A stretch of DNA of 64,000 nt from a virus. The notes under the pieces are model-generated. The model saw nothing but the letters and a program-made list of their open reading frames with translations, did not search any database and was not told the DNA's origin. A program made the position numbers and the translations under genes. Shown here in pieces: positions 7,847-56,602 of this stretch. Positions within the stretch are counted from its first letter, which is position 1, and each line of letters starts with the position of its first letter. The DNA lies in the IMG/VR virus record IMGVR_UViG_3300031772_000001, positions 103,661-167,660 of that record, one strand, 5' to 3'.

Positions 7847-7916
7847 TGAAACCTCCTATGAATGTGATTAAACAAAGACAACACTACTAATAATACGAAA
7901 GAACATAAAAAATACC

Positions 7917-15425: not shown

Positions 15426-15434
15426 TAAACTGCC

Positions 15435-17453: not shown

Positions 17454-17456
17454 AGT

Positions 17457-17993
17457 TTATCCTACATTGTCAACTATTCGTAAAGAACCCAACACACCTT
17501 TTTGTGCCTGCAAATACATATCAACTGCCTGACCTGACTCTCGTATCTGATAGTTATGATGGATCAGGATATTTGCTTCGTTAGAGTAAACACTGATTCC
17601 CAGAAGGTTAATTCGAGGCTCCCACTGATTGATTGCATTTGTCATATACACCACAACTTCGGCTCTCAATACCGAGTCATTCGGCTCGAACAAAACATCC
17701 AAAAAATGAGAACCAAACAACGGATTCATCAGACGAGAACCAACCCTCGTCGTATAGATCATCAAAATAGAAGCCTTAACAAGGTCATTAGTGTACTTAA
17801 CCCCAAAACGCCCATCTTTTCTTTTTGAAAGAGGGACCGCTGCTCCACGCCACTTAGAACCATAAGCAGTCAGGTTAGTCGGTGGGAGGGCGTACCCTGT
17901 AATAGTCGGAGAAATAGCAGGAGTAGCTTGCCAAACTTGCGGGTCTACAAGCTGACTCTGATACAACTCTGATTGAAAAGGTACGTTTGCCAT
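17457..17993 (-). CDS. gp25-like baseplate wedge protein
   Basis: 178 aa. The C-terminal 120 residues show the gp25/GPW lysozyme-like fold signature: ...DLVKASILMIYTTRVGSRLMNPLFGS followed by a helix and a strand pair ending in NYQIRESGQAVDM. The conserved TxxGxR...PxFG pattern is present (TRVGSRLMNPLFGS). The 55-residue N-terminal extension is longer than in T4 gp25 (132 aa). gp25 bridges the sheath and the wedge. Position between the small tip genes and gp6/J agrees. Confidence 0.9.
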   Translation of the reverse strand: MANVPFQSELYQSQLVDPQVWQATPAISPTITGYALPPTNLTAYGSKWRGAAVPLSKRKDGRFGVKYTNDLVKASILMIYTTRVGSRLMNPLFGSHFLDVLFEPNDSVLRAEVVVYMTNAINQWEPRINLLGISVYSNEANILIHHNYQIRESGQAVDMYLQAQKGVLGSLRIVDNVG

Positions 17994-18008
17994 ACAACTA
18001 AGTTTATC

Positions 18009-18452
18009 TTACGCCATAAACGGATCTTCCCTTGCACCCTCTTGCTTTTTAACAGAAGTCAACATAGGAGGAGGTTTGTCATACACCCACGTCCACCCAT
18101 AAATATCTGTTGCAGGAAGTGGAGGAGTCAGAGCACCACTACCACCTGCAAGATGCTTATGCGCGTTAAATTCCATCAACAAGTTCTGGTATATTTTCAC
18201 TTTTGGATCTTGAGCACCAGCATCTACCTGTCTCTTGTCATCCTCTGACTGTCCAGTACGACCGTGCATGAAGAATTTTGAGAAGTCTGAATCCACATTC
18301 ACATCCGGCGCGGCGTACACATCATGCTTCATCATTGCTGCTACAGTATCCATCTTAGCTTGAATATCAATCGAAATAGTAACAATAGCACTTGTTACTG
18401 CTAAAGACATCGCATCAATAGCGTTCACTACATCATCAAGAGTTGCTGGCAT
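18009..18452 (-). CDS. hypothetical baseplate-region protein
   Basis: 147 aa. Residues 1-50 form an alanine-rich amphipathic helix (VVNAIDAMSLAVTSAIVTISIDIQAKMD), then a charged middle with AHKHLAGGSG, and a proline-rich C-terminus (TPPLPATDIYGWTWVYDKPPPM). The combination of an oligomerising helix and a histidine/glycine loop recalls phage needle or spike-associated proteins but no family is certain. It lies between the PAAR-like tip and gp25. Stop/start spacing to its neighbours is short (6 and 15 bp). Confidence 0.65.
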   Translation of the reverse strand: MPATLDDVVNAIDAMSLAVTSAIVTISIDIQAKMDTVAAMMKHDVYAAPDVNVDSDFSKFFMHGRTGQSEDDKRQVDAGAQDPKVKIYQNLLMEFNAHKHLAGGSGALTPPLPATDIYGWTWVYDKPPPMLTSVKKQEGAREDPFMA

Positions 18453-18458
18453 AATCCC

Positions 18459-18776
18459 TCACCCTGAGAATGTTATCATAGAACCCTGTGTAATAACACC
18501 AGAACCACCAGAACCAACAACAGAATCCATCACTCTTGCAAAACCCGAACCGTTATCACCCTTAGTTATCACTGACCCACCCACAACATGACCAGTACCA
18601 CAGATATTACAATTCAATTGAACCTGATCCCCCTGACGAACAACATAATTTCCATCCAGTTTCTTAGTCTTATCTCCTGAAATCAACTGACCACCCGGAG
18701 GTTGAAAATACGGGTATGCATTGTGACTGCAATTGTATTGCACAAGATCATTATTTCGTGCCGCTGCTTGACCCAT
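18459..18776 (-). CDS. PAAR-like tail spike tip protein
   Basis: 105 aa, about the usual size of PAAR-type tips. It begins MGQAAARNNDLVQYNCSHN, close to the PAAR start (xAARxxD), contains cysteines and histidines able to bind the tip metal (C16, H18, then CNICGTGH at about 55-62), and ends in the expected beta hairpin (VITKGDNGSG..., VITQGSMITFSG). It would cap the gp5-like spike and pierce the outer surface. It sits in the same cluster as the spike and hub genes. Confidence 0.8.
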   Translation of the reverse strand: MGQAAARNNDLVQYNCSHNAYPYFQPPGGQLISGDKTKKLDGNYVVRQGDQVQLNCNICGTGHVVGGSVITKGDNGSGFARVMDSVVGSGGSGVITQGSMITFSG

Positions 18777-18779
18777 TAC

Positions 18780-19496
18780 TCACCTATTCGACAAAGAAGA
18801 CAAATTCTTTCGCATATCCGTACAACTATTCATCGTTGCCTGTTGAGAACTGGTCATTACTTGTACGTTTCCAGCAGGATCAAAATTCAGTAAACTTTTC
18901 AAAGAATTGTACAGAACTACATTCGGGTCACTCTGTCCGTCAGGATACTTACCTAACAAACATGACAAAGAATCATCCGTAGCTTTTATCAAAACTTGCA
19001 CTCCAGACACACGAATAATCGCGTCAAACGCCTCCTTCATCCTCGCTATAGACCCCAACGGTGACTTCGCCAGAGCCACAGAAACCATCTGAGAAGCCAA
19101 TGCCTGTGCGTCCTTGGCCTTCGAGTTGGCAAGGTTCACATAAGACGTTACCTGTGCTAAAACCGCTGCTGGAGGATTATATGGATCAAACGGACCATTG
19201 TTAAGAACATACGTCTGAACCCAATCAATAATAGCCTGAGCACTCGGCAAAAGACAGACTGCTATTGGACAATTCAAAATCAAATCAAGGTACTCTGTCG
19301 GAGTTAGCAGATGTACCGGAGGAATTGCAAAGTTACTAAGCAACGCATCCAAATCATACCCCGAAGAGAGCTTTGCCAATTTAGCTGTGATCTTGTTCAT
19401 TTTATCTACAACAACCTGAAGTTTCTTGTTTACATTTGCTAAATTAGCAATACCATTATCAAACAAATCTTGACAAGTCGAAGTAGGTAATGCCAT
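18780..19496 (-). CDS. hypothetical protein between spike and PAAR tip
   Basis: 238 aa, mostly helical with several cysteines (C8, then CPIAVC at about 75-80, C179, and C near the C-terminus), which is unusual for a cytosolic phage protein. There is a hydrophobic stretch (LLTPTEYLDLILNCPIAVCLLPSA, given here only in part) but no clear signal peptide. Placed between the central spike and its tip, it could be a baseplate component, a chaperone or a protein delivered with the spike. No family is recognised. Confidence 0.6.
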   Translation of the reverse strand: MALPTSTCQDLFDNGIANLANVNKKLQVVVDKMNKITAKLAKLSSGYDLDALLSNFAIPPVHLLTPTEYLDLILNCPIAVCLLPSAQAIIDWVQTYVLNNGPFDPYNPPAAVLAQVTSYVNLANSKAKDAQALASQMVSVALAKSPLGSIARMKEAFDAIIRVSGVQVLIKATDDSLSCLLGKYPDGQSDPNVVLYNSLKSLLNFDPAGNVQVMTSSQQATMNSCTDMRKNLSSLSNR

Positions 19497-19506
19497 AGCT
19501 TACTGC

Positions 19507-20160
19507 TCAGTACATGTCGTTAGTAATCTGCATTGCCTTATGCGCCAATGTACCGGGAGTCTCTTCTGTCATACCACCATCTGCCTTCAATTTCCAGTTA
19601 CCACCAACACTAAAAGTACAGTCACCAGAAACATCAATAGTAAGATCACCTTTTACCTTAATATCCATGTCATCTTTCGTTGAGTCAATAAGAATAGAAT
19701 TCCCGTTTTTGTCAGAAATTTCTACTGACTCTTTCCCACTCTTATCTACAAACTTGAGATAATGACCGCCCCTTGTTTTCAACATTCGAGTTTCAGGGTA
19801 TCCATCCTGAGCTTCTTTTGGAATTTCCGTCTGACCATTCGGAGCACCAAACCACGTACCCACCCAAACAGGGTACATATAATCACCATTTATGAACGTA
19901 ACCCAAACAGTATCTCCAACATTCGGAATAAAAACAAACCCGTAGTTATTTCCCCCACCATCCAATGCCATATACTCAGCCCACGGCAATTTGTCCTTGT
20001 CATCCTCATACTCAGAATCGTGAATAAAGGGGATATAGACCTTGAGCTTACCTACTTTATCAGGGTCATTATTGTCCTTGCACCACGCACGATAAATACC
20101 ACCCAGACGCTCCTGTGGGGTCATCCCGTCCTTTATCATCTGTGCAGCAGTAATACCCAT
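19507..20160 (-). CDS. gp5/VgrG-like central spike protein (OB-fold plus beta-helix), no lysozyme domain
   Basis: 217 aa. Residues about 17-110 form the gp5 OB-fold: GIYRAWCKDNNDPDKVGKLK, then LPWAEYMAL, GFVFIPNVGDTVWVTFINGD and PVWVGTWFG, all hallmark phrases of spike OB domains. The rest shows short repeats (SVEISDKNGNSI, DMDIKVKGDLTIDVSGD) that build the trimeric beta-helix. T4 gp5 has a lysozyme domain between these parts; it is absent here, as in VgrG and gpV. Its ATG overlaps the hub gene stop (TAATG). Confidence 0.9.
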   Translation of the reverse strand: MGITAAQMIKDGMTPQERLGGIYRAWCKDNNDPDKVGKLKVYIPFIHDSEYEDDKDKLPWAEYMALDGGGNNYGFVFIPNVGDTVWVTFINGDYMYPVWVGTWFGAPNGQTEIPKEAQDGYPETRMLKTRGGHYLKFVDKSGKESVEISDKNGNSILIDSTKDDMDIKVKGDLTIDVSGDCTFSVGGNWKLKADGGMTEETPGTLAHKAMQITNDMY

Positions 20161-21416
20161 TATTTCTCCGCAGTCTTAGTAACCAAATTTGATTCTCTAA
20201 CCTCTCTTAGAATATTTCCAATCTTATTCTTTGTCTCTTTGTCATATTGTGAAGCTGATTTTGGAGTATTCATAGTGCTTCTTGATAACTCCAAACTGGA
20301 TGTGAAGTTTCCCCCATCAATACTATCAGTAATACCAGTTATCCAATATATCCCTGACAAAGGATGTATTCTATCTTGAGAAGTAATCACAATAAATTCA
20401 ACATACCCCATAATCGGCAAGTGTGAATCACCCAAAAGCTCTGCTGTAGCTGTATAATTATTTAGATTATACACAGCAAATCTTGACTTTGCCTGATCAT
20501 CTATATGCTCTTGTTTTGGATGTGCTGACTTAATTACCCTTGATGGAGAATTACCTTTTGCAGTCGGAGCATTTGATAGTTTTCCAGAAATAATCTGTAT
20601 AGATGAATTTGAACTATCCACAATACTCTTGATTATTTTCTTTGTCTTTGGATCAACACTTTCTACATACACACTATGCGCCCCAAGAAACGCTTGCATA
20701 TATGCTTCATCATTAGGAGCAAAAGAAATCACCTCACCATTCATACCCCGATACACAATATAAGTCTTATAGACACTAATATCATTACTATTCTTTGAAT
20801 TATATAGAGGAGTGTGAAAATGAAGTGCTCCTTTTTCATCGTAGAAAAAGGTATAACCACTCAAACCTTTAAGATTTACCGCTCTTGGTACAAGTTCATT
20901 CTGAATAAAATACACATCATTACAATTTCTCTTAACAATAGGACTATCAAACCCACCTCTTGTTTTTTCAATCATAGTCTCTTTTATGTTGTTATCATCT
21001 GCATACTGTTGAACAATATCAGAAATCCGAGTCCCTGCCTTATATGACAAGTTATTTCTGTTGTATGTAGAAACAACACTCTCATCATAGAAATCCAGTT
21101 TTAGTGTAACACCGTCAGAAGAAAACTCCGGTGTATACGCTGTAATCTTCCCCTTTCTCTTAGGAGAGGGAGCATCCGACCACCCATAAACAAACTCAAC
21201 ATCAGCCAATGTCTGATTCTTCAAAAGAACAAAAGACTCTAAATAAGTCCAATTTGGATCAAACAAGGTAATTGATCCAGTGTTCCCTTTACCATTAATC
21301 TTTCTATCGTAAGTAAAGCTCTGAAAATAGTTGTAAACAGGGATAGACGTTCCGTTAATTGATAACTCAAAATACGTCTGCCTTAATGTACCTGAAGGAA
21401 GATATGTCTCTACCAT
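20160..21416 (-). CDS. baseplate hub protein (gp27/gpD-like)
   Basis: 418 aa. It reads like a tail-hub protein of the late-control gpD/gp27 type: the N-terminal strand set (YFELSINGTSIPVYNYFQSF), TGSITLFDPN, then a second barrel with VSTYNRNNLSYKAGTRISDIVQQYADD, and GYTFFYDEKGALHFHTPL, typical of the domain that joins tube and spike. It forms the trimeric ring that adapts the sixfold tube to the threefold spike. Neighbours are gp53/LysM-like and spike genes, the expected order. Confidence 0.85.
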   Translation of the reverse strand: MVETYLPSGTLRQTYFELSINGTSIPVYNYFQSFTYDRKINGKGNTGSITLFDPNWTYLESFVLLKNQTLADVEFVYGWSDAPSPKRKGKITAYTPEFSSDGVTLKLDFYDESVVSTYNRNNLSYKAGTRISDIVQQYADDNNIKETMIEKTRGGFDSPIVKRNCNDVYFIQNELVPRAVNLKGLSGYTFFYDEKGALHFHTPLYNSKNSNDISVYKTYIVYRGMNGEVISFAPNDEAYMQAFLGAHSVYVESVDPKTKKIIKSIVDSSNSSIQIISGKLSNAPTAKGNSPSRVIKSAHPKQEHIDDQAKSRFAVYNLNNYTATAELLGDSHLPIMGYVEFIVITSQDRIHPLSGIYWITGITDSIDGGNFTSSLELSRSTMNTPKSASQYDKETKNKIGNILREVRESNLVTKTAEK

Positions 21417-21418
21417 AT

Positions 21419-21736
21419 CTAACTCACAAGACTATTAAGAACAAGTTTGACACTATCAAAAGCTGGAATCCTTATTCGCATACCGGGAATAAGTTCTTCA
21501 AAAATATCCTCAACCTTATTTGCATGAGCAATAACCCACCACAAATTAGGGTCATTATAATACATAACAGCAATCAAATCCAATCTTCCTATTTGAGTTT
21601 CAATAACAGTATGAATAATATCGTTATCAGACTCAGGAAACACTATAGGTTCCCAAATGTCAAAATACTCCGTACCATTTCGATTGATTAACGGGGTGTT
21701 CAACATCCGAGAAGTTGGCTTTAGGTCTATGGACAT
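21419..21736 (-). CDS. gp53-like/LysM-type baseplate wedge protein
   Basis: 105 aa. The phrase GRLDLIAVMYYNDPNLWWVIAH followed by ...ELIPGMRIRIP (the first part shortened here) is the typical LysM-like core of phage gp53-type proteins: D-x-IA-x-x-YY-x-DP-x-x-WWVIA and PG-x-x-x-x-IP. These small proteins connect the wedge to the hub or tube initiator. The ATG at 21736 overlaps the stop of the upstream gene (TGATG). Confidence 0.85.
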   Translation of the reverse strand: MSIDLKPTSRMLNTPLINRNGTEYFDIWEPIVFPESDNDIIHTVIETQIGRLDLIAVMYYNDPNLWWVIAHANKVEDIFEELIPGMRIRIPAFDSVKLVLNSLVS

Positions 21737-22410
21737 CAGAATCCCTGCCTTACTTCAGTTCTCCAAGTATCCTGTAACACGGCAGAATTAGCAATATTAG
21801 TATACTGTCCATCCTTACGAAGAAGATTGTCTGCACCAAAAGAAACATCATACCCAGATATAGGAATATCACTAACAACACCAAGAGTCAAACTACATTC
21901 GGCAGACATAGGTAACAAAGGGTAGTTAGCTCTCCCCGGAACATCTGCAAGCTCGTTTACTTCCCAAGGTGCCCTATAAACAGGAGTAGCCTCTTTTACA
22001 ATGCACATCTTTGCAATCAACTCTCCAAAAACAAAAAGAACTTTTGGAGGCCTGTATGATATTCCACCATAATTAACAGGGTATTTCAGGGATCTTAGAA
22101 AGTTTACCTTGGCTATCACATCTTGAAACACATTTGTATATGAAAAGAACTGAAGTGTGAAAGAAAACTCCTCGGCAGAAGTATTCTGGTATACCTGATA
22201 CGGTGCCCAACGTCCAACAATCTCTATGTCATTATAGGTTGGTTCTGCCCCAGAATGGTTTATCTCCTCTGGTAAGTAGGTAAATCCAAGCCGAGTAAAG
22301 GCAAACAAGTCCCTCAACTTCTGAGGATAGTCTCTATCAATCAGAAGATACGCCTTGTTCTCGTGGTCAGCGTAAGAATAATTACTACCACCTGTCACAG
22401 CACTTGACAT
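21736..22410 (-). CDS. tail tube initiator / hub-tube adaptor protein candidate
   Basis: 224 aa. The centre (IVGRWAPYQVYQNTSAEEF then SFTLQFFSYTN) matches the tube-fold strands that recur in gp48/gp54-type and related tube initiators, where a G-R-x-x-P-...-N-...-L-x-F phrase is common. The middle is followed by a conserved-looking FVFGELIAKMCIVKEATPVYRAPW. It lies between the tape measure and LysM-like genes, exactly where tube initiators occur in this type of cluster. RBS TAGGAG precedes the ATG. Confidence 0.65.
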   Translation of the reverse strand: MSSAVTGGSNYSYADHENKAYLLIDRDYPQKLRDLFAFTRLGFTYLPEEINHSGAEPTYNDIEIVGRWAPYQVYQNTSAEEFSFTLQFFSYTNVFQDVIAKVNFLRSLKYPVNYGGISYRPPKVLFVFGELIAKMCIVKEATPVYRAPWEVNELADVPGRANYPLLPMSAECSLTLGVVSDIPISGYDVSFGADNLLRKDGQYTNIANSAVLQDTWRTEVRQGF

Positions 22411-37385: not shown

Positions 37386-38084
37386 CTACAAAACCAGTGT
37401 GGGTTGAGCACAGTTGATAGGAAAGAATAACCATGCCCTTGCCATCATATCCACAGTACATCTTAGTATTCTATTTGACTCAGAAGGTTCTAAATCACTA
37501 TTATCAGACATACCCTCAAGCCGTAGAGGTATTATCTTATCTCCCCACCCACTACCTATAGTGACCGTCCTAAAAAGCTCATTATGGGCATTTCCATAGT
37601 CTGCCATCTGTGAAAAAAGCCACTCCCAAATATACGCTTCTGAGAACTTCCTCTTATACCAAAAATCAAGTTGATAAGGGATATTTATTGGAAGAGGAGT
37701 TCTCGTAGATCGTGCTAATCTTCTGTCAGCACTGTATGTAAGAGCACGTATTCCTGCTCTAATAAACCGAGTCTCATCAATCGTAGGTGTCTGCCGGTAT
37801 ATTGAGACAAAAGGAAGTGGTATTCTTTTCCAAGTCTCTACTGCGTTCTCATCAGTACCATCACCAATACCAGGATTATTAGGATCAAGCCAACCCTTCC
37901 TTACAAGCATCTGTTCCATCTCAGCAACAGCACGGTGCGGAGTTGAATAACACCTCAAAATACCAAAATTTCGACGCGGCGTACCTGCAATATCTCCATA
38001 ATTGACTTTTAGAGTATCAAGCCAATCATAGATCATTGAATCATAACGCCTTAGCTCGTTTCCTAAAGTTTGAGGAGACGCCAT
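37386..38084 (-). CDS. tail terminator / gp15-like protein candidate
   Basis: 232 aa from the ATG at 38084 (a GTG at 38096 with AAAGAG upstream is an alternative). The central pattern PLPINIPYQLDFWYKRKFSE, then a helix, IIPLRLEG, and a closing strand ILRCTVDMMARAWLFFP, parallels T4 gp15, where P-x-x-I-x-Y-x-L-x-x-x-x-R is followed by a long helix and a late strand of the same type. gp15-like proteins cap the tail and join it to the neck. It opens the tail part of the window, directly after three hairpins. Confidence 0.55.
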   Translation of the reverse strand: MASPQTLGNELRRYDSMIYDWLDTLKVNYGDIAGTPRRNFGILRCYSTPHRAVAEMEQMLVRKGWLDPNNPGIGDGTDENAVETWKRIPLPFVSIYRQTPTIDETRFIRAGIRALTYSADRRLARSTRTPLPINIPYQLDFWYKRKFSEAYIWEWLFSQMADYGNAHNELFRTVTIGSGWGDKIIPLRLEGMSDNSDLEPSESNRILRCTVDMMARAWLFFPINCAQPTLVL

Positions 38085-38099
38085 AGCAACCACCACGCG

Positions 38100-38178
38100 A
38101 AGCTCTTTCGAGCTTTATCACCCACAAAGGAAACACTACGCGAAGCTCTTTAGAGCTTATCTGTTAGGCTTTCGCCTA
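38100..38178 (-). promoter_or_regulatory. three short hairpins with GAAA/UAAA-type loops
   Basis: On the minus strand, in transcription order: TAGGC-GAAA-GCCTA (38178-38165), AAGCTC-TAAA-GAGCTT (38158-38143) and AAGCTC-GAAA-GAGCTT (38115-38100). Two loops are GAAA (GNRA), and each of the two AAGCTC hairpins is followed by CGCGT(A/G)GTG. No T run follows, so these are not ordinary terminators. They occupy most of the 140-bp gap 38085-38224, which has no gene, and could be RNA-processing or protein-binding sites ahead of the gp15-like gene. Confidence 0.6.
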
Positions 38179-38224
38179 TATTATGAAGCCATTACTGACT
38201 TTATAGACTCACTCTTCTATCTAC

Positions 38225-38683
38225 TCATCTCTCTCCACTTTGTTTTTTCTTGTAATTATCTTTCAACAAACTTAATTCAAAATTTGTTAAATCTTTTTTA
38301 TTGTGAAAGATTCTCATATCATAAAAATCACTGCCATCTTTATGTTTCTGTACCCCGTCATGGAAATTAACTACATATTTAGCACTTTTCCCAATTCCGT
38401 ATTGGATATAATAAACCTTTCCTGCCTCGGCCTCTCTCAACTTCTTCGGCTTACCTATCCCATCATTCCAATTTCCGGCAATCATATTCAACCACATAAT
38501 CACATCACCAATCTGCTCTGCCTTATCTAAAGACATCACAGCATTATTCTTTGTAGCATCATCAACATTGTATTTCCAAAAAGCATCAGGATCGTCTACC
38601 TTGTTGTAATCCATTGCTTTTGGAGGATACCGAGACTCATCAAGATGATTTTTTTTGACGTACATCTCCTGAAGTAGACTCAT
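38225..38683 (-). CDS. putative internal/head-associated protein with shared leader
   Basis: 152 aa. It begins MSLLQEMYVKKNHLDE, sharing the first eight residues with upstream neighbours but with V where they have E. The body (DAFWKYNVDDATKNNAVMSL, IMWLNMIAGNW, KYVVNFHDGVQKHKDGSDFYD) is of unknown fold. The ATG overlaps the preceding stop by 4 bp. Its place at the end of the leader-bearing series, next to the capsid genes, suggests a virion-packaged protein; this is inference. Confidence 0.7.
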   Translation of the reverse strand: MSLLQEMYVKKNHLDESRYPPKAMDYNKVDDPDAFWKYNVDDATKNNAVMSLDKAEQIGDVIMWLNMIAGNWNDGIGKPKKLREAEAGKVYYIQYGIGKSAKYVVNFHDGVQKHKDGSDFYDMRIFHNKKDLTNFELSLLKDNYKKKQSGER

Positions 38684-39060
38684 GCCGCACTCTCCTTACT
38701 GATTTCTTCTATGTATTGGTTAATCTTCTTTGCCGCGTCATCCAAACTCTTTACTCGTGTCTTTCGGAATTTCTTCTTTACGGTATATGCCTTCTTAAAC
38801 TGATCTATAGAACCGTTTCTCCCTATGTCAAAATGCATGTAACGAGAATTCTCCATAATATCATACTTCCACGTATCTTTAGGATCTAAAGAAACCCTGA
38901 GTAATATCGAAGCACGCTCGTCACCACCCAAAGTAGACAGGTAGGCATACTTATATGGTGCCTTAATTGACTCTTTGAACTTCTCAACATCAACCGTACC
39001 AGCATCAAATATAGATTGAGGCTGTGCTACATCTTCGTAAATATCTTGAAGCAAACTCAT
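38680..39060 (-). CDS. putative internal/head-associated protein with shared leader
   Basis: 126 aa starting MSLLQDIYEDVAQPQSIFDA. The leader IYE fits a T4-type prohead protease site (hydrophobic-x-E). The rest (YLSTLGGDERASILLRVSLD, ENSRYMHFDIGRNGSID, KFRKTRVKSLDDAAKKINQ) resembles a small alpha/beta domain I have seen annotated only as hypothetical in phages. It is followed by a gene with the same leader at 38225 and preceded by another at 39062. Confidence 0.7.
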   Translation of the reverse strand: MSLLQDIYEDVAQPQSIFDAGTVDVEKFKESIKAPYKYAYLSTLGGDERASILLRVSLDPKDTWKYDIMENSRYMHFDIGRNGSIDQFKKAYTVKKKFRKTRVKSLDDAAKKINQYIEEISKESAA

Positions 39061-39061
39061 A

Positions 39062-39511
39062 CTACTTTACCTTCCTGATGTAAAACGGCCTACCAATCTG
39101 AGCAACCTCCCAACCATCCCCCATCTCCTCTGCCTTTTTATAAGCCTGTGATCGGTTACTATAATTGTAGGCAGATAATCCATACTTAGTCATCTTAGCA
39201 AGAACTTCCGTCTTACCATCATTCAAAAACTTAGTCAGAATCTCAGACTCGTGTATCTCTTTACCCTTAGCATCAATCAAAGTTTCATTCCCGTGGTCAC
39301 TTACCATCCAAATATTAGGATAATACTTGTTCTTCTTCTGCCAAACATTAACCGCTTTCAAAGCATCATCAAACTCTTTGTAATGCCCCGTATGTTTACC
39401 ACCACAAGAAACATCATACCCTCCACGAGTCACATCAGAAATAAAACAATCTTCCTCTTCTGACTCTTCTGATTCTACTATATCCTCATACATCTCTTGA
39501 AGCAGGCTCAT
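39062..39511 (-). CDS. putative internal/head-associated protein with shared leader
   Basis: 149 aa starting MSLLQEMYEDIVESEESEEE. After the leader and an acidic stretch it carries GYDVSCGGKHTGHYKEFDDA..., NVWQKKNKYYPNIWMVSDHG and ...NETLID, a small phage domain of unknown function with conserved aromatic and H/N residues. The second half (KTEVLAKMTKYGLSAYNYSNRS...) is helical. The acidic run following the leader is typical of propeptides. Confidence 0.72.
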   Translation of the reverse strand: MSLLQEMYEDIVESEESEEEDCFISDVTRGGYDVSCGGKHTGHYKEFDDALKAVNVWQKKNKYYPNIWMVSDHGNETLIDAKGKEIHESEILTKFLNDGKTEVLAKMTKYGLSAYNYSNRSQAYKKAEEMGDGWEVAQIGRPFYIRKVK

Positions 39512-39512
39512 A

Positions 39513-39767
39513 TTATTTTACCTTTTTGATTACTGGTGCCACAACAGGAATAGGCTTACTAGAGGACTTTACTGTATCAATCCTAACAATCAAAGTTGTG
39601 TCTTTGAGAGTTTCCTTGATTTTCAACGTATCATAAATAACAAACTTCAAAGAATCATTTCTTACCTTTGTGATAATTGTGTCGGGTATAATCACCTTTG
39701 AAGAATCAAACCTTGTTATAGCCATAACCGAAAAACAAAAAGCAAGAACCGCTATCCCATGTTTCAT
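39513..39767 (-). CDS. small secreted or membrane-anchored protein
   Basis: 84 aa from the ATG at 39767, which lies 7 bases after AGGAGG; an ATG at 39773 would be too close to it. The N-terminus MKHGIAVLAFCFSVMAITRF is a clear signal peptide or anchor (K, then 14 hydrophobic residues, ending SVMA). There is no lipobox cysteine at the usual position. The rest is strand-like and T/V/K-rich (DTIITKVRNDSLKFVIYDT), ending in PIPVVAPVIKKVK. A periplasmic role such as lysis or superinfection control is possible but not shown. It interrupts the leader-bearing series. Confidence 0.65.
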   Translation of the reverse strand: MKHGIAVLAFCFSVMAITRFDSSKVIIPDTIITKVRNDSLKFVIYDTLKIKETLKDTTLIVRIDTVKSSSKPIPVVAPVIKKVK

Positions 39768-39778
39768 AACCATACCTC

Positions 39779-40081
39779 CTATGGCATTCTTTCAACCACA
39801 TGATCTATCTCAGTATTATCAATTAACATTACGTCACCATGCTCAGTCTTAACATTGTACCACAAATCCTGATACACAAGGTCTTTTTCAGTCATTATAC
39901 CTTTCTTAATTCGTAAAGCAGCCTCATCACCAACTACAACATCCAAAACTCTTGCTAACTTTGCCTGATGTTCACTTGGAAGTTTCCCACCAGTAATCAA
40001 ATACTTTGTAGGAGGCATTAAATCAGCAGGAACTTTGATTTTACCAATGGAAGACTCATACATTTTTTGAAACAAGCTCAT
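39779..40081 (-). CDS. putative internal/head-associated protein with shared leader
   Basis: 100 aa starting MSLFQKMYESSIGKIKVPAD. MYE fits the prohead protease-type site. The body (KYLITGGKLPSEHQAKLARV, LRIKKGIMTEKDLVYQDLWY, GDVMLIDNTEIDHVVERMP) is a compact alpha/beta protein without recognised family. The ATG overlaps the stop of the upstream gene by 4 bp, so translation is coupled. Confidence 0.7.
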   Translation of the reverse strand: MSLFQKMYESSIGKIKVPADLMPPTKYLITGGKLPSEHQAKLARVLDVVVGDEAALRIKKGIMTEKDLVYQDLWYNVKTEHGDVMLIDNTEIDHVVERMP

Positions 40082-41103
40082 AACCCTACCCTCTTTTTCT
40101 TTTTGGAAATTGCTGCTGCCCTTCTCTTATGCTTTCGCATCTTGATTATCTTAGGCTTTGGTCTTGGAATATTCACCTTCGGAGCAGGCTTTATATGTGA
40201 AGCCACTTCTTTCCAAAACTTATTCAATTCTGGCTTCTTCGTATTCACGTTAGCCAAGTAAACCGCTGCCTGCTTTGCCTTCTTCTTATCCCCACCCTTA
40301 TCTGCAATCAGCTTCGTCGCAGCCGCTTTAGGACTCTTCTTCTTGGGGTCTACCTTCACCCCACGTACCTTACGACCCTTAACTTCAGCACGTCTCTTAC
40401 CCCTACCCTTTACGCTCTGGCGACCCTTGGAATCCTTCTTCTTTCTCCTCGCCTTAGTACCCTTCTTGTATACCTGATTGAGCTTTGAACCCGCCTTAAT
40501 CATCCCGGCAATCCCACCGGCAATAGCTCCAACTATTCCAAATCCCAAAGCAATAGGAGCAGTAACTACTTTGCCCAAAGTATCGAGTATACCTTCTAAA
40601 ACAACCCCTTCATCCCAACTTTCTTTTACAGCTATCCTATCTGCTACTCTCTTAGCCTCTGCCTCTGACTGAAACTCTTCTATGGTATCTGCCTTTTCAA
40701 TATCCCAAAGACGATACCAACCATGCTGAGTCTTTGTTATTTCATAACGACCATTAGTAAGCATTTCTCCTTCACGCTTCCATACACTCTTAGACTCCTC
40801 AACCTTTTCTTCTGGTTTAGGCTCTTTTACCTTTGTCCCACCTTTAAGTATAGATGAAACAAAATCCGAGAGAGGCTTATTATCCTTGACTTCAGGATTA
40901 TCCTGCATCATCTTCAGGGTAGTAAGAACCGCGTTTTCACCAGTTCTTCCGTACCTCTTAACAGCATTAGCCGCTACATCCCTCAAAACTTTTGCAAAAT
41001 TTCCATGCCCGGCATCCTCAAAGGAACCTTTGACAAACTCAATTGCCTCCAGTTCCTTTGAGGATTTCTCCTTAGAACTTACCTCGTATATTCTCTGAAA
41101 CAT
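40078..41103 (-). CDS. basic, leader-bearing candidate internal head protein
   Basis: 341 aa from the ATG at 41103 (GAGGTG 9 bases ahead); upstream GTG and ATG codons at 41115 and 41112 would spoil the leader. It starts MFQRIYEVSSKEKSSKELEA, matching the family pattern. Residues about 175-210 are a glycine-alanine hydrophobic helix (GKVVTAPIALGFGIVGAIAG), and the last 140 residues are very basic (KARRKKKDSKGRQSVKGRGK...), histone-like, as expected of a DNA-binding packaged protein. It could condense or accompany the DNA in the head or be ejected with it. Nothing about catalysis is visible. Confidence 0.65.
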   Translation of the reverse strand: MFQRIYEVSSKEKSSKELEAIEFVKGSFEDAGHGNFAKVLRDVAANAVKRYGRTGENAVLTTLKMMQDNPEVKDNKPLSDFVSSILKGGTKVKEPKPEEKVEESKSVWKREGEMLTNGRYEITKTQHGWYRLWDIEKADTIEEFQSEAEAKRVADRIAVKESWDEGVVLEGILDTLGKVVTAPIALGFGIVGAIAGGIAGMIKAGSKLNQVYKKGTKARRKKKDSKGRQSVKGRGKRRAEVKGRKVRGVKVDPKKKSPKAAATKLIADKGGDKKKAKQAAVYLANVNTKKPELNKFWKEVASHIKPAPKVNIPRPKPKIIKMRKHKRRAAAISKKKKRVGL

Positions 41104-41111
41104 CAAATCCA

Positions 41112-41315
41112 TCACCTCTTCTCCGGCTCAGACACAGAGGAATCACCAAGTATCTTGCAAACAGCATCCCGGCCTGTGATAGCGAGAATACCCAGAATAC
41201 ACGTCTGAATACCCTCAACAGTATGCCCCTGCACAATCATACCAATACCCCCAACAATAGCCACAACACCTGTCCAGAACGTCTTGGTCTTGAGAATCTT
41301 AGGATCAAAAAACAT
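41112..41315 (-). CDS. small two-helix membrane protein, holin-like
   Basis: 67 aa with a perfect AGGAGGTG 5-6 bases before the ATG. Two hydrophobic segments, about 13-31 (FWTGVVAIVGGIGMIVQG) and 34-50 (VEGIQTCILGILAITGR), and a short charged tail (EPEKR). The KTxFWTGVV...G...LGILAI pattern is common in small phage membrane proteins annotated as holins, but the gene lies among head genes rather than with a lysin. No endolysin was found in the window. Confidence 0.55.
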   Translation of the reverse strand: MFFDPKILKTKTFWTGVVAIVGGIGMIVQGHTVEGIQTCILGILAITGRDAVCKILGDSSVSEPEKR

Positions 41316-45961: not shown

Positions 45962-47395
45962 CTACGAAATAGTGACAGGAGCGAAGAACTTCGAGTTCAC
46001 GAACTTACGCCCGTAACTCTGCACCATACCGAACCGACCAACCATATCATCAAGAACGATGGTACGGGTAGTGTACAACGGGAGGTACGGTGCCCACACG
46101 TATCCAGCCTCCAAGAACATATTGCCCTTATAACCGAGCAAATATTTCAGGGAATTGTAGTACGGGTTCTTGTAAACACGGAAATCACCAAGAGTACCAA
46201 GATAATGCGGTCCCGGCTGAATCGTTCCTTCCCTCTTAAACAGAGGAGCAAGAGCCTCAACAACCGAAGACACATCCGTACCAACTGCCATAAAGTTACC
46301 AACCGCACGACGAGTCGCTTGGAAGATCGCATTCGACGTAGGCAGAACGCTCTTATCATAGAACGCCCACTTGTGCTCACTCCAAGGAACTCCCGTATCA
46401 GGGGTACGGTTGAAGGTATAACCCGTAGCAGTACCACCGGCCATAAGCTCACTCAGAATACGTCCGTCTGTCTCCTGACGAACTTCCGCAGCAAGTGAAG
46501 CCTTCAGTTCGGTGTCAACCGAACGACCAAACGCCTGCTCCACATCCCACGCCGCATCCAGAGTATACCGAGCACGGCACTTCTGGTTTTCAGCAGTGAC
46601 AGGAATTGACGTGATGGAAATGTCAACTTCAGGAATAAGCTCTGAGTTTGTCTCAAAGTTATTGTCGTACACTGCTGAAACCACCTCACCAGCAGCTACG
46701 TTAAACCCAAAAGTTACATCCACAACACCAGTAGTCAGAACAACACTTGACGGTGCGCCAATGTCACCAATCAAATTACCAGTACCATCATCATGCACTG
46801 TCATAACAACACCACCAGCCTTCTTAGCGGTTATGACAAGAGTACCAGCAACAAGAGGATGAGCATTCAGAGGAGCAATCGCAACTCCACCAGCACCATA
46901 ATGGGCGTGAGCACCGTCACCAGTAGAAAGAGTCTGCACAATCTCTTTTTCATGGGTGTAGCTGATACCAGCACCGGCCTGTGCCGAACCTGCCACATCG
47001 TAAGCAAACATCTTCGTACCGGCAGCAATATCACCACGAGTCGTACCATACAGGAATTCAAGGAAGAAAATTTCTCCCTGTCGGCGTGTCATCGGCTGCA
47101 CAGAAACAATCTCATTCGCAATCAGTGAAGGAAGAACAGCCGCAATCAACTCAAACCCATGCTTGATAAAAGAACCAACATTCACTGCCGCCGTTGTCTC
47201 GTCCATACGCTTGAAGAAACGATCAGTGTTTTCCAAGCAGATAGCCGTAGTAGCAAGCGTCAACTCACTAACTTCCGGCTTACCACGCTTCACACCCTCA
47301 AGGATGTCTGACCACTTTGACATAGCATAGTCAGCCATACCAAAAAGAGCGTCCTTCGCTTCGTTAAGAGCAACTTCATTCAGAGCCTTCGCCAT
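45962..47395 (-). CDS. major capsid protein (gp23-like, HK97 fold)
   Basis: 477 aa. It has the order typical of T4-type capsid proteins of large phages: N-terminal helix region (ALNEAKDALFGMADYAMSKW), then LPSLIANEIVSVQPMTRRQG, IFFLEFLYGTTRGD..., a variable insert (about 155-260), and a C-terminal half with YTLDAAWDVEQAFGRSVDTE, ARAEVRQETDGRILSELMAG-like segments (EVRQETDGRILSELM) and YVWAPYLPLYTTRTIVLDDM. The N-terminal about 65 residues may be removed by the protease encoded just upstream. AACCGGGGAG precedes the ATG, 15 bp after the protease gene. Confidence 0.92.
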   Translation of the reverse strand: MAKALNEVALNEAKDALFGMADYAMSKWSDILEGVKRGKPEVSELTLATTAICLENTDRFFKRMDETTAAVNVGSFIKHGFELIAAVLPSLIANEIVSVQPMTRRQGEIFFLEFLYGTTRGDIAAGTKMFAYDVAGSAQAGAGISYTHEKEIVQTLSTGDGAHAHYGAGGVAIAPLNAHPLVAGTLVITAKKAGGVVMTVHDDGTGNLIGDIGAPSSVVLTTGVVDVTFGFNVAAGEVVSAVYDNNFETNSELIPEVDISITSIPVTAENQKCRARYTLDAAWDVEQAFGRSVDTELKASLAAEVRQETDGRILSELMAGGTATGYTFNRTPDTGVPWSEHKWAFYDKSVLPTSNAIFQATRRAVGNFMAVGTDVSSVVEALAPLFKREGTIQPGPHYLGTLGDFRVYKNPYYNSLKYLLGYKGNMFLEAGYVWAPYLPLYTTRTIVLDDMVGRFGMVQSYGRKFVNSKFFAPVTIS

Positions 47396-47410: not shown

Positions 47411-48919
47411 TTAGATTTTTCGGATAAGATCACAAACAGCATCAGCCTGAGACGTTCTTTTAGCTGATTCCAAACCCTCACTCATAACCCGAAGACCACC
47501 AACAACTGAATCCAAAGAATTTTCAAAAAGTCGTGGTCTTACTGCCTTCTGCACAAGAGGCTTTGATTCAACTTGGGGAACAACTTCTTGAATCTTATTT
47601 TCCTCTTCGTCAAGAAGAAGCTCTTCCTCGTCTGCTGACTCCTCAGTCTCTTGAATAACCAAGTTAAGCCTAGAATACAAAGAAGCCTTTTCAGAGATGA
47701 GTTTTCGTCTCTCAACCCTAAGAGCTTCGTTACTTTTCTTCAGTTCTTCAATCTTCTTACTGAGAAGATCACCTGATTCCGTCAAAGAGGAAACTTTTCT
47801 TCCATATTGTAGAAGTTTTGCATAGAGATCCTGAAATTTATCTTCTGATACCTTGTCAACATGAGATTCAATTACCACTTGCGATTTCTTCGCTTTGGCA
47901 AGATTGATAGCCTCTTGGTAATTAGCCAAAAGAATATCATTTTCAAGTTTGACGGTATCATACAAATTCTCAAGACCCTGCATTTCCTTTTGAGAAGACT
48001 CAGGTTCCTTGGAAGCACCAACAGAAACATCAACAGACTCAACCAAAACCGATATTTTCTCTTTTAACTCTTTAACCTGAAAAACAGACTCACGTAACAT
48101 AGAATCCTTAGAAATTAAAGACTCCCTAAGAGATTTCACATTCTTTCTAAGAACTTCAACCTCCTTCTTCAATTCCTCAACTACAAGTTTATCTTTGTCA
48201 GAAGTCGTTATTTTCTTATCAGAATCCTCATTCAGTGTCGCCTTCGGCTGCTTAACTCTCTCCAAAATCAAATTACTGTTACATCCAAGTTTCTCTAAAA
48301 TACCCTTGAAATATGCTGGATCTTCCTGAAAAGAATCAGGGGAAGACTCACAAATAATCTTCTCTATCTGTTCCCTTACCGGCTTAGGATATGCGTTTTG
48401 GGCAGACGGCTCGAAAACAAAATCAAACCCACCCCACTTATACCCCTTCTCTGAAACAAAATTCTTACCTTCTTTTGCAATTGTATTACCACCACCACGA
48501 GTAGATGCACCTAACTTCACATTTGCCTTGAATAAAGTAGAAACAATTCTACCCATCGGAGTATCAAGAACCTCCGACTCAGCCATCAATGCCTTCTTAT
48601 CCTTCTCCACCCATGCCTTTGTCATTACATGGGAAACAGTAGACAACGGAGGAACAAACTTATCTGTAGGATGGTCAGCAGCACCAACTAATGCACGCTC
48701 TTTTATAGCTTCCTGAATATCATCACGACCTAATACCTTATCCCAAAACTCGTTAGTATAGACACGACCATTCCTATTTTCAGTCTCCGTGATACCGATT
48801 GGACCACGGACCTTCATAATCACACCGGGACGAAGACTCTCCTTCTCCGTAACTAACTCAAAAGATTGAGAGTCTGTCTCAGGATAATAATCATCTATCA
48901 GGATATTTTCGTTTTCCAT
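47411..48919 (-). CDS. prohead protease (T4 gp21/S80-like) with C-terminal coiled-coil scaffold-like region
   Basis: 502 aa. The first 200 residues are an S80-type prohead protease: ETENRNGRVYTNEFWDKVLG, ADHPTDKFVPPLSTVSHVMT with candidate catalytic H83, MGRIVSTLF, and NVKLGASTRGGG with candidate nucleophile S139. Such enzymes mature capsid and internal proteins at (I/L)-x-E sites. Residues about 245-430 form a long coiled coil (VEELKKEVEVLRKNVKSLRE, ...EELKKSNEALRVERRKLIS), which in T4 is a separate core protein, so this looks like a protease-scaffold fusion. The C-terminus (RPRLFENSLDSVVGGLRVM) resembles a capsid-core contact. GAGGG precedes the ATG. Confidence 0.88.
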   Translation of the reverse strand: MENENILIDDYYPETDSQSFELVTEKESLRPGVIMKVRGPIGITETENRNGRVYTNEFWDKVLGRDDIQEAIKERALVGAADHPTDKFVPPLSTVSHVMTKAWVEKDKKALMAESEVLDTPMGRIVSTLFKANVKLGASTRGGGNTIAKEGKNFVSEKGYKWGGFDFVFEPSAQNAYPKPVREQIEKIICESSPDSFQEDPAYFKGILEKLGCNSNLILERVKQPKATLNEDSDKKITTSDKDKLVVEELKKEVEVLRKNVKSLRESLISKDSMLRESVFQVKELKEKISVLVESVDVSVGASKEPESSQKEMQGLENLYDTVKLENDILLANYQEAINLAKAKKSQVVIESHVDKVSEDKFQDLYAKLLQYGRKVSSLTESGDLLSKKIEELKKSNEALRVERRKLISEKASLYSRLNLVIQETEESADEEELLLDEEENKIQEVVPQVESKPLVQKAVRPRLFENSLDSVVGGLRVMSEGLESAKRTSQADAVCDLIRKI

Positions 48920-52855: not shown

Positions 52856-55800
52856 CTACTTTCCCCGTCCAGACTTTTGTTTGTTATAGGTAAGAACAGC
52901 ATTCACCATGTCTGGATCTTTCATTCCAAACTTCGCCATAACATAAGTAGCAAAGGTATTATCCAAAAACAACCTGTTAAACCACTCATAAAAATCATTG
53001 TTACCCTCAGCAGAAATTACCAAATTAAAAAAGAAATCTACGGCATGTCGCTCATCCACAACAACATCAACAATACCACGGAAGAAATTTTGCTGATTTA
53101 ACACATTTGTTTTGAAAATATCCGCGTGCGCTACCGCATCACTGGCAATCTTCTCAGTAACTTTCAATTGATCTGTCTGCAAGGAAAACAACTTCCTGAT
53201 GTACTTAACAGCAGTCGCCTCGTCAATAACGTCTGACAACTCCAACGAACTTCTCCCCATTGCTTCATTGAAGAAGGTAAGAAATTCAGGGGCATACTTC
53301 TCTCCGAGAATCGAAGTAATACCTTTAGTTCTGAAAATCTTAACTTGATTATCAATACTTAATAACTTTCCAAAACAATACCCAAGATTCTTTCTTAAAT
53401 TATCCATAGAATTATCATAATCTCCCTTTACAGCAGCATCCAAAGTATCATACATGCTCTGCACAAAATCCTTGACAGAATACTTAACACCTCCGTACTC
53501 CACAGGATCTATAGTTGGGTCATACCCCGCCCAATTCTTAGGAACAAGCTCAAGTAAAACCTTCACCCTATCAAGAAACCCGTCCTTATCCCTTGGAAAT
53601 GGTTGAATCATCCTCGACTCAATTGACCCATCATAATCAAGAACAGAACCACAAAATGAAATATTGTCCATGTGCTTAATCGACTTGTTCAACGTGCTCC
53701 AACCTCGAAATGTCGGAGCACCATGACCAAATCCTACATCATCAGATTCTCCTATAGGATCTTCTACATGCATAAACATCTTAACAAGTTCATCTGGGGT
53801 CTTACTTGCCAAGTAGTCAAGAATGACAGAGGAATACCCCTCTGACTTTATACCTGACAAATAATCCGTAGCATCCTTATCAGTATAACTAAGTTTTACA
53901 TACATAGCAGAACGGCCAGAGAAAGCAGAATCAATAGTGTTTGCTCCCTCATATCTATCACCATAATTCATAGCCTGAAGTACAACTACCTGTCCGGGTT
54001 CAAATTGGACGCCAAAGAGGCGGCAATCGCTGATTGCTTCAAAAACTGAGGACATCGCTGTTTGTTTTGCCCTATTCAACTCATCAAAAAACACAACCAA
54101 CTTCTGTCCCTTCTTGAGCTTCCTAATTCTTTTTGTAAACTCAATATCAGGAGCAAAAACAGTTACCTCTTCCGGTAGACTAAGCTGCCCCAAAATTGCC
54201 GGATCTTTCAACTGAGCATACAAAGGATGAGTTTCTGGTAACTTCCCTTTAAGATCCTCTAACGCATAGTCAATAGTGTTAATGGTCTTCGGTGCCCCCA
54301 TTACGTCAACTCTGTCTTTTTGAGACATATTGATAACAAATGGAGCATCCAAACCCATCTCTATACACACTTTATTAACACGATCTGTCTTGCCGTATGA
54401 TGTCGGGGTAATCATCATCATAGCATTACCACTACCAACACAATTTCTTATACCCTTCTTAAATTCATCTTGTTCTTTACCTGGGGAATCATCTACATGC
54501 TTGACTATACTCTTATAATTAGTCTTGAGATACTTCAAATATTCTGAAGATACATCATTCTCCCCTATCAAGTTAGTAATAAAGACAGGGTTAAAAAAGT
54601 CTTTCTTTGCTTCCACAGCATTAACATGATTACTTACAAATTCCCAAGACCTGTAATGAGGAAATGGATCTAATGCTGCCCTTTTCTCCTGACCATCACC
54701 GTACTTCTTGTAGATGTCAGCCAAGACATCAATACTATACGCCTTTTCGGGAGTATCTACAAAATCAACAACAGATTTATGCCATCCTGCACCCTGAATA
54801 TATTTCTTCCACCTACCATAAACATCTTTAGGATTAACATTTATAGACTCAAACCTTTGCGCTGCTGCCGGATCATTGATCATAGTAGTTGCATATATAT
54901 CATGTATCGAAGGATCTAACCCTATAGGGGCATTAGCAGCACACACTATACTACACTGCTTCATCGAATGATTATTATATATCTTCTGATTAAGAATAGC
55001 AGTAAGTGTTGCAATAACAGACTGAGGTGCCCGATTTATCTCATCAAGAAACAACAATACTGGCTTTTTCCATTCTTCAAACTTCTTCCTAAGAGCCTCT
55101 ATAGTATCCTTTTCATCTTTAGGAATATCTGGGGTATCTGTAAGATACTTCTCAATCTGAACATACTTCTGAGTCGCAAATTCCTGAAAATCATCCGTCG
55201 CCGTTATCATCTTGTCCATTGAAGCAGAATAAGACATCATCCTCTGTGTCTCATCATCAGTAGCAAACTTCTTCATACCTTCAAAGTCACTTCTTTCAAC
55301 AAATGCACAGTTTCTCACGAAAACACCAGAACTAAGAGCGAAATTATGGTATTCAGGGACATTCAAACAATACGCATTAGAAATTTCCTCAACTACCCAA
55401 GCAGACACAACCTTACAGTCCCTATTTTCTCTGCCTGACATTAACAAAATTCCAGAAATTAGGTCTTTTGCCTCACACTCAGAACCATCTCGAAGAATAA
55501 ATTTGTGGTCCGGCGTTACCCTTACCTTTTCTCCGTTATCAATCTCAACTTCAACAAAAGAAGCATTCTCTCTTGTTACTCCAAGTGCTGTGGCAAGAGC
55601 AGGAAAAATAGTCCCATCTTTCTTACATGAATAAACCCACACCTTATCACCAGCAGGAATATCTTTGATCTTTTTAGAAGTACCGTCAATCAACTTTATT
55701 TCTGTGTCCCCGTGTAAGCACCTGAAGTCCACAAGTCTATACCCAAGCTCTTTTGCTAATTTCTTTACAAGTGCAGATTTAGCTACGGCAGTAGGCCCAA

Positions 55801-56602
55801 TAAGTGTAGCAACTTGCTTCGCATCATCAGACCTTTTCAACAAATACTGTCTTAGCCACGTCTCAACAGGATCAAGTGTTCCTCCTGAAATACCTGGGGA
55901 AGCCCCACTACCGGCATTCGGAAGAGGAGCCTCGTACAACTCTTCACCCTGTCCTCGAAACTTCCGTAGCTGCTCTGTAAACTGCCCGATAGCCTCAGTA
56001 GTTGGAGTAGGAATAGCAGGGGTAGGAACAGTGGCATCCTTAGCTTCTGGATTCACAGGGGCAATTACAGGGGACACTCCCGGTCCATGATACTCAAGAC
56101 CAGCCTTATCTCTCTCAGCAAAAGCACCCAAAACACTTGCAGTAAGCAACGAGTTTACAAGTCCTTTTATCTCATCTGAACTCTTCGTATACCACAAAGA
56201 AACAATCTCACCAGCCTCTTTCACAATGGAAATAGAATCTGAAAAGTCTGAAATATTGAGTTTCGCCATCAGATTGTCTTCATCCAACGTGACATACCTT
56301 AATATCTCGGCATAGTCAACAACATCAATCAAAGCCTCTATCTTAGAACCCTCAGAATAAAGCTGCCTATTCAGTTCCTTAACATCATACAAATTCTCCT
56401 CTGCAAACACATACAAATTCAAAGGGTGTAGCTTGTAGAAACGAAAAGAAGCCTTTGCCGGAAAACCCCCAAATACAGGGTAAGTATCATACCCATAAAA
56501 AGGAGCAATCAACTCCTTCTTTGACAACATCCGGGTATAACTTCCTGTGAATCTTTGGGCAGAACGAACAAAAGGGAAGATACTCTCAATGTCCAAAAGC
56601 AT
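52856..56602 (-). CDS. tandem AAA+ (MoxR-like) ATPase containing a mini-intein
   Basis: 1248 aa including a 137-residue intein; 1111 aa after splicing. Residues 1-180 form an N-terminal domain, then a proline/glycine linker. AAA+ 1: Walker A GPTAVAKS at 269-276 (with A for the usual G), Walker B LLFLDEINRA at about 516-525. AAA+ 2: Walker A-like TPTSYGKT at 732-739 (lacks the first G) and Walker B VVFFDELNRA at about 836-845, followed by sensor and arginine-finger-like stretches. Two degenerate P-loops resemble MoxR/dynein-type ATPases that remodel or activate partner complexes. The VWA-metallopeptidase gene two places downstream is the likely partner. GGAGTC precedes the ATG. Confidence 0.85.
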   Translation of the reverse strand: MLLDIESIFPFVRSAQRFTGSYTRMLSKKELIAPFYGYDTYPVFGGFPAKASFRFYKLHPLNLYVFAEENLYDVKELNRQLYSEGSKIEALIDVVDYAEILRYVTLDEDNLMAKLNISDFSDSISIVKEAGEIVSLWYTKSSDEIKGLVNSLLTASVLGAFAERDKAGLEYHGPGVSPVIAPVNPEAKDATVPTPAIPTPTTEAIGQFTEQLRKFRGQGEELYEAPLPNAGSGASPGISGGTLDPVETWLRQYLLKRSDDAKQVATLIGPTAVAKSALVKKLAKELGYRLVDFRCLHGDTEIKLIDGTSKKIKDIPAGDKVWVYSCKKDGTIFPALATALGVTRENASFVEVEIDNGEKVRVTPDHKFILRDGSECEAKDLISGILLMSGRENRDCKVVSAWVVEEISNAYCLNVPEYHNFALSSGVFVRNCAFVERSDFEGMKKFATDDETQRMMSYSASMDKMITATDDFQEFATQKYVQIEKYLTDTPDIPKDEKDTIEALRKKFEEWKKPVLLFLDEINRAPQSVIATLTAILNQKIYNNHSMKQCSIVCAANAPIGLDPSIHDIYATTMINDPAAAQRFESINVNPKDVYGRWKKYIQGAGWHKSVVDFVDTPEKAYSIDVLADIYKKYGDGQEKRAALDPFPHYRSWEFVSNHVNAVEAKKDFFNPVFITNLIGENDVSSEYLKYLKTNYKSIVKHVDDSPGKEQDEFKKGIRNCVGSGNAMMMITPTSYGKTDRVNKVCIEMGLDAPFVINMSQKDRVDVMGAPKTINTIDYALEDLKGKLPETHPLYAQLKDPAILGQLSLPEEVTVFAPDIEFTKRIRKLKKGQKLVVFFDELNRAKQTAMSSVFEAISDCRLFGVQFEPGQVVVLQAMNYGDRYEGANTIDSAFSGRSAMYVKLSYTDKDATDYLSGIKSEGYSSVILDYLASKTPDELVKMFMHVEDPIGESDDVGFGHGAPTFRGWSTLNKSIKHMDNISFCGSVLDYDGSIESRMIQPFPRDKDGFLDRVKVLLELVPKNWAGYDPTIDPVEYGGVKYSVKDFVQSMYDTLDAAVKGDYDNSMDNLRKNLGYCFGKLLSIDNQVKIFRTKGITSILGEKYAPEFLTFFNEAMGRSSLELSDVIDEATAVKYIRKLFSLQTDQLKVTEKIASDAVAHADIFKTNVLNQQNFFRGIVDVVVDERHAVDFFFNLVISAEGNNDFYEWFNRLFLDNTFATYVMAKFGMKDPDMVNAVLTYNKQKSGRGK
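55310..55720 (-). other. mini-intein inside the AAA+ gene (residues 295-431)
   Basis: 137 residues from C295 to N431, in frame. Block A CLHGDTEIKLIDGT, block B VRVTPDHKF with TxxH (T69-H72 of the intein), block F-like EYHNFAL, and the end SGVFVRN followed by extein C432. The penultimate residue is R where H is usual. There is no homing endonuclease domain (LAGLIDADG or HNH). Removing it joins ...GYRLVDFR to CAFVERSDFE..., a natural AAA+ sequence, 19 residues after the Walker A lysine. Confidence 0.9.

Follow-up and report, generated by a model that had tools for sequence, protein, structure and literature searches.

A shared N-terminal leader on unrelated proteins of a T4-like phage as a candidate capsid-targeting sequence

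Background

The capsid-targeting sequence (CTS) of phage T4 and the internal proteins IPI, IPII, IPIII and Alt were reportedly described by Mullaney and Black in 1996. Both have since been reviewed (PMC9026906, PMC3012670), and mutagenesis of the CTS distinguished residues required for targeting (4 and 7) from those required for cleavage (8 and 10; PMC9026906). The major capsid protein of T4, gp23, is cut after residue 65, giving a propeptide of 65 residues (PMC5694885). Here, a short N-terminal leader common to unrelated proteins is described from IMG/VR virus record IMGVR_UViG_3300031772_000001 (167,660 bases; G000). The window, that is, the whole stretch of DNA that was analysed, comprises 64,000 nucleotides (bases 103661-167660 of the record), and unless the record is named positions in G000 are those of the window. 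A relative with 71% identity (G001) and a contig with 97% identity (G002) were used for comparison. In cleavage sites a slash marks the known or predicted cut.

The arrangement resembles that of T4 in several respects: a short leader stands on unrelated bodies and ends at a site of the gp21/S77 protease type, the gp23 capsid protein has a propeptide of about 65 residues, and the targeting motif is separable from the cut site, as in IPI. It differs from T4 in that the leader has no sequence similarity to the CTS (MSLLQEMYE versus MKTYQEFIAE) apart from the spacing of hydrophobic residues and the final xxE, and in that M is also allowed at P3, where the T4 cleavage motif is [LI]-x-E. At least 15 proteins bear the leader here, compared with three or four in T4, and they are encoded in two tandem arrays. 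The invariant tyrosine at P2, a P-loop kinase among the cargo and a scaffold probably fused to the protease are further differences.

In SPN3US and phiKZ many head proteins are cut after x-x-E by a gp21-related protease and are ejected (PMC5694885), as is predicted here. However, the propeptides of those phages are mostly longer than 100 residues and mostly not shared, and their motif is A-x-E or S-x-E. DarB of phage P1 is likewise sent into the head by an N-terminal signal (PMC9024508), again as predicted here, but the Dar proteins have no common consensus and belong to a different head system. The concept is already known from T4 and its close relatives. In the open-access literature no description was found of so large a set or of tandem arrays, nor of distant T4-like phages in which each clade has its own leader, matched to its capsid site.

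Results and discussion

The leader occurs in two gene arrays

Five window genes, all on the minus strand (38225-41115), encode proteins beginning with the consensus M-x-[LFI]-[LF]-x-x-[MI]-Y-E (Table 1). They adjoin one another as given in a preliminary description of this DNA, with an open reading frame for a secreted-type protein of 86 residues (39513-39773) between them. That description missed a second, larger array of about ten leader genes, which lies outside the window at record bases 14261-22392 (L002/L003) on the same strand. Because G002 (47034-47216) links base 167660 of the record to base 1, the map is circular or permuted, with about 37 kb between the two arrays. Altogether 16 leader proteins with unrelated bodies were tabulated, 15 of which satisfy a strict motif test. 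The leader is real, and larger in extent than first noted.

It is 9 to 12 residues long, hydrophobic at positions 3/4 and 7, with an invariant tyrosine and with glutamate at the predicted cut. Among 29 leaders from the two phages (G000 and G001), every P6 is L or F, P3 has M in 16, I in 11 and L in 2, and 26 have E at P1. All have Y at P2, although this residue formed part of the search pattern.

The strict motif follows the start codon in 15 of 250 genes of G000, when about 1.5 would be expected, to judge by start-like codons within the genes of that genome. Calculated in the same way, the expectation for G001 is 0.85 and 11 were found. [LIMV]YE is enriched in the first 24 residues relative to later positions, 4.8-fold in G000 (p = 6e-7) and 5.3-fold in G001 (p = 3e-6); no significant enrichment was seen in Maribacter phage Molly, SP-15 or T4. 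In addition, G000 has 33 pairs of proteins in which non-homologous bodies bear similar N-terminal decamers, compared with 0 to 7 after shuffling.

The leader ends at a predicted protease site

The window encodes a prohead protease whose active-site motifs (NGRxY, HP and GxSxRGxG) align with those of T4 gp21 and whose C-terminal extension is probably a fused scaffold. Gp23 is presumed to be its main substrate. Alignment of capsid proteins shows Glu66 to be invariant and, in this phage, set in an [LIM]xE context (MDE/T). The site is RMDE/T here, ALLE/T in LIS04, QLLE/S in Streptococcus phage GXN1, AIME/A in Molly and QMFE/T in SP-15. Among 75 capsid proteins from viral contigs, most have [LVMIF]xE at this site, with T, A, S or G as the next residue. 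Since MYE, LYE or FYE occupies the capsid site of four related contigs (LMYE/AS in L137 and L139, SLYE/T in L096 and RFYE/T in L087), MYE is a plausible gp21-type site. The earlier proposal that the protease encoded at 47411-48919 cuts after MYE or IYE thus finds support, at the level of sequence, in the S77 motifs, in the capsid site MDE/T and in these capsid proteins of relatives.

Leaders without the P1 glutamate all have [LV]xE downstream: LDE/S in the MYV protein, LQE/A in the MYG protein and VDE/T in the MYT protein. The first of these (gene end 38683) had been taken for a simple leader variant, which it is not, as the protein lacks the E and has LDE/S a few residues further on. LDE/S is conserved in both phages; the homologue in L008 (12281-12529) reads MSLLQEIYS...NLDE/SRFPP. 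T4 IPI is arranged likewise, with MKTFKEF followed by ITE/A at residue 19 and 76 mature residues.

Leaders move between proteins

Comparison of homologues in G000 and G001 points to a portable leader. G000_16842 and G001_14888 have both leader and C-terminal body in common, with about 60 residues inserted between them in G001. The two-domain protein G000_20222 has a single leader, whereas in G001 its halves are separate proteins (20288 and 20014) with a leader each. The homologous bodies of G000_19852 and G001_18467 bear swapped leaders, MSGLFAEMYTKSKKVVDE/T and MSYQSDLFLNE/A, respectively. Four of the six genes of the first array are absent from the relative. The leader gene that comes next begins, in each of the two phages, within the stop codon of the gene for the basic protein of 345 residues (ATGA), a homologue of which is kept in place in the relative (L008). 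In these comparisons the tag moves independently of its cargo, leaders being gained, lost and swapped among homologues, and the arrays probably turn cargo genes over quickly while the tag stays.

A second leader type of G001, MS[YR]QSDLFL[ND]E/AVSK, was seen on two unrelated proteins (18467 and 18823), in one of which a second site, LVDLYE, follows.

Proposed delivery into the host

The shared N-terminus is most readily understood as a capsid-targeting propeptide that is cut by the gp21-type protease, its cargo being packaged and ejected into the host (probability roughly 85%). This was also the reading of the preliminary description. It is backed by the tag itself, by the protease and the capsid site, and by the leader's portability; packaging, cutting and injection are what it predicts. 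The leader would form a short amphipathic helix and bind the prohead core, probably through the fused scaffold portion on the C-terminal side of the protease. Cutting by the protease would then follow after [MIL]-Y-E, or at the nearby [LV]-x-E when the leader has no E, freeing the mature proteins inside the head. These would enter the host with the DNA and act in the first minutes of infection. By further inference from T4 IPI and IPIII (PMC3012670, PMC9391042), they may have a role in host takeover or in countering host defence. The leader would work like the CTS; descent from the T4 sequence is not supported, because the leaders are unrelated.

Several observations weigh against this interpretation. 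A tyrosine at P2 is not demanded by a gp21-type site, as the phage's own capsid protein has MDE, and its invariance derives partly from the search. The leaders often have K, D or V at P1', a position at which capsid proteins mostly carry T, A, S or G. Downstream [LIM]xE has a background frequency of 19% per protein. When [LIM]xE close to N-termini was tested by position, independently of similarity, the signal was clear only in G000 and its near-identical relative G002, being weak or null elsewhere, G001 included. No leader family was found in LIS04 or SP-15, though their capsid proteins are related. Virion proteomics for this phage was not found.

Cargo proteins and alternative explanations

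What the cargo does is the point on which the capsid-targeting interpretation has its most serious competitor. Packaging and cleavage may be as proposed while most of the cargo serves in the core, for structure or DNA packing, without ever acting in the host, an unlikely but far from negligible case. The protein of 345 residues (product of 40078-41115) fits such a role. As stated in the preliminary description it is strongly basic (net charge +41, isoelectric point 10.2), with a glycine-rich hydrophobic stretch and a Lys/Arg-rich tail, and it is kept in place in the relative; it may be a structural, DNA-binding or core protein instead of an effector. However, a pure packing role does not suit the fast gain and loss of cargo at one site. 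Nor does the finding that only 11 of 17 mature proteins are basic. A further count gave positive charge in 8 of 13, and two proteins are very acidic.

The kinase also argues against a set made up of core proteins. This leader protein of 250 residues (record bases 37445-38197) matches PF13671 (AAA_33; 42.1 bits, cut-off 27, 1.3e-10) and the zeta toxin family PF06414 (36.3 bits, cut-off 22.3, 5e-9) and contains GxxGxGKS. Its homologue in G001 (7750-8520) has a leader of its own. To judge from these matches, this cargo looks enzymatic and zeta-toxin-like. For another cargo protein, in G001, a weak, sub-threshold match to the WGR domain was obtained. The five window proteins gained no function from Pfam, PHROGs, NCBIfam or PADLOC, their sole match being to PHROG 3308, a family of unknown function. 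A protein search with the cargo of 126 residues returned no phage match. For two cargo proteins that lack homologues, AlphaFold gave poor models (predicted local distance difference test, 62), and a fold search against PDB gave nothing significant.

It is improbable that the leader remains uncut and directs proteins to some other structure or partner, such as the tail, the host membrane, RNA polymerase or a replication compartment. The protease needs neither the invariant tyrosine nor the charged residue at P4, and the arrays lie in the late region near tail genes, as such a destination might imply. Against this, the end of the leader matches the phage's own capsid motif, [LIM]xE, exactly, leaders without the E carry a substitute site downstream, and T4-like phages with unrelated leaders keep the [LIM]xE end.

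Still less probable is descent from common ancestors, in which the proteins are paralogues or recent duplicates with diverged bodies and the N-terminus is what is left. The tandem arrangement would be consistent with duplication, as would the close resemblance between two N-termini of G001 (MS[YR]QSDLFL[ND]EAVSK). However, the bodies have no similarity, and homologous bodies bear swapped or additional leaders. The preliminary description was correct that DNA codons differ: at residues common to leader pairs codons are identical in 174 of 329 cases, when 159 are predicted by codon usage alone. The flanking DNA is unrelated (34% identity upstream and 30% downstream). The leaders are therefore not recent duplicates, and the leader is conserved at the protein level and not at the DNA level.

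Chance, or a start-codon context in which the ATGA stop-start overlap imposes 'MS', has a negligible probability: some genes do overlap by ATGA, but the overlap fixes at most two residues of a nine-residue motif that non-overlapping genes also carry, and chance, recent duplication and ATGA overlap were rejected by motif counts, shuffling, codon agreement and motif length.

Leader families in other T4-like phages

A blind leader test applied to T4 as a positive control returned IPII, IPIII and IPI together with gp61.1. The latter (NC_000866, 18966-19130) is annotated as hypothetical and has a CTS-like N-terminus, MKTFKEFIKE/D.

Different leaders were found in Molly (Molly_1, L037-L039), where 11 to 12 proteins are involved (for example, MKTNQIKSLVE/S), and in GXN1 (L060-L068), with five proteins. 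Further families occur in viral contigs G008 (MIKLxxLLxE), G009 (MKLxxLL[ST]E) and G011 (MENFDLKKFLVE). All these families end in [LIM]xE. Those of Molly and GXN1 resemble the present one in that the leader stands on several unrelated proteins and its [LIM]xE end is like the phage's own capsid site; they differ in that the sequences are unrelated (IKS[LM][VI]E and MRL[IV][RK]LxE) and the families were found here by computation. An N-terminal enrichment of MKKLFL type in G011 was rejected as a leader family since it reflects ordinary signal peptides. No clear leader family of this kind was found in G006, G007 or G012.

A scan of 2.9 million viral contigs with the leader pattern gave G001 and G002 as sole true relatives. 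The remaining matches were rejected, either as out-of-frame or internal (L021, L025, L028, L024 and L026) or as part of an unrelated protein (L023). A scan of genome collections for hosts returned distant capsid relatives only.

The odds are evenly balanced that modular protein delivery by means of tags is at work in many T4-like phages infecting diverse bacteria. A leader peculiar to the clade would be tied to its own protease and core and would load numerous injected effectors, a set that changes fast (in this phage at least 15, the zeta-toxin-like kinase among them). If so, the injected proteome could be read from the genome by means of a leader ending in the phage's capsid cleavage motif. 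Injected proteins act ahead of phage gene expression, making them prime candidates for blocking first-line defences, but the lack of a common fold makes them difficult to identify. With a short tag, verifiable against the capsid site of the same phage, candidates can be listed from sequence alone, which yields at least 15 testable proteins here as well as sets in phages with cultured hosts (Molly and GXN1). The findings also suggest that the internal proteins of T4 represent a general mode of delivery, modular in build and with address tags that differ from clade to clade.

Features of the locus and neighbouring genes

Table 1. Leader genes, head genes and candidate substrates, with window positions unless the record is named
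Feature	Position	Strand	Leader or site	Remarks
Leader protein, 152 residues	38225-38683	minus	MSLLQEMYV...HLDE/SRYPP	Targeting motif kept, E lost, predicted cut shifted to LDE/S
Leader protein, 126 residues	38680-39060	minus	MSLLQDIYE/DVAQ	Body matches PHROG 3308 (unknown function)
Leader protein, 149 residues	39062-39511	minus	MSLLQEMYE/DIVE	No family match
Protein of 86 residues	39513-39773	minus		N-terminus hydrophobic, tail charged; leader absent; passenger in array 1
Leader protein, 100 residues	39779-40081	minus	MSLFQKMYE/SSIG	No family match
Leader protein, about 342-345 residues	40078-41115	minus	(MMDLM)FQRIYE or (M)MFQRIYE/VSSK	
Basic repeat-containing protein, 585 residues	42389-44146	minus	MRFSQKDMFNAVNEVSPTQVYE (N-terminus)	Possible or likely internal core protein
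Major capsid protein Gp23	45962-47395	minus	RMDE/TTAAV	PF07068, 6.4e-45; predicted propeptide of 66 residues
Prohead protease, gp21/Peptidase_S77 type	47411-48919	minus		PF03420, E = 2.7e-12; PHROG head maturation protease, 4.6e-32
Protein of 1157 residues	48960-52433	minus	MRKLYE/QSG	MSKLYE in near relative; possible further substrate, by inference
Array 2 leaders	Record 14261-22392		MNLLSRIYE, MSLLEEMYE, MDSLFTKMYE, MSLLTRMYE, MSLLQQMYE	MSLLTRMYE has a GTG start
Array 2 leaders, continued	Record 14261-22392		MALLKRMYE, MGLLVKIYE, MSGLFAEMYT, MTLLVDIYE, MSVFIDIYE	
Array 2, less certain leader			VVMSLYE	
Isolated leader gene	Record 37445-38197 (L003)		MAVKALLRDMYE	Leader before P-loop kinase domain

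The protein of 585 residues contains WNDxSxSAGGAAxGSFPHEPT repeats and varies in length; its gene adjoins neck genes and has a counterpart in L008 (7465-10053). The protein of 1157 residues has an HEVDH (HExxH) motif and acidic repeats, and near it is encoded a protein of 1248 residues (52856-56602) that matches the AAA ATPase family phrog_1297. Beside the first array, the protein of 86 residues with its signal or transmembrane segment and a protein of 67 residues with two transmembrane segments (41112-41315) could be spanin-like or holin-like lysis proteins.

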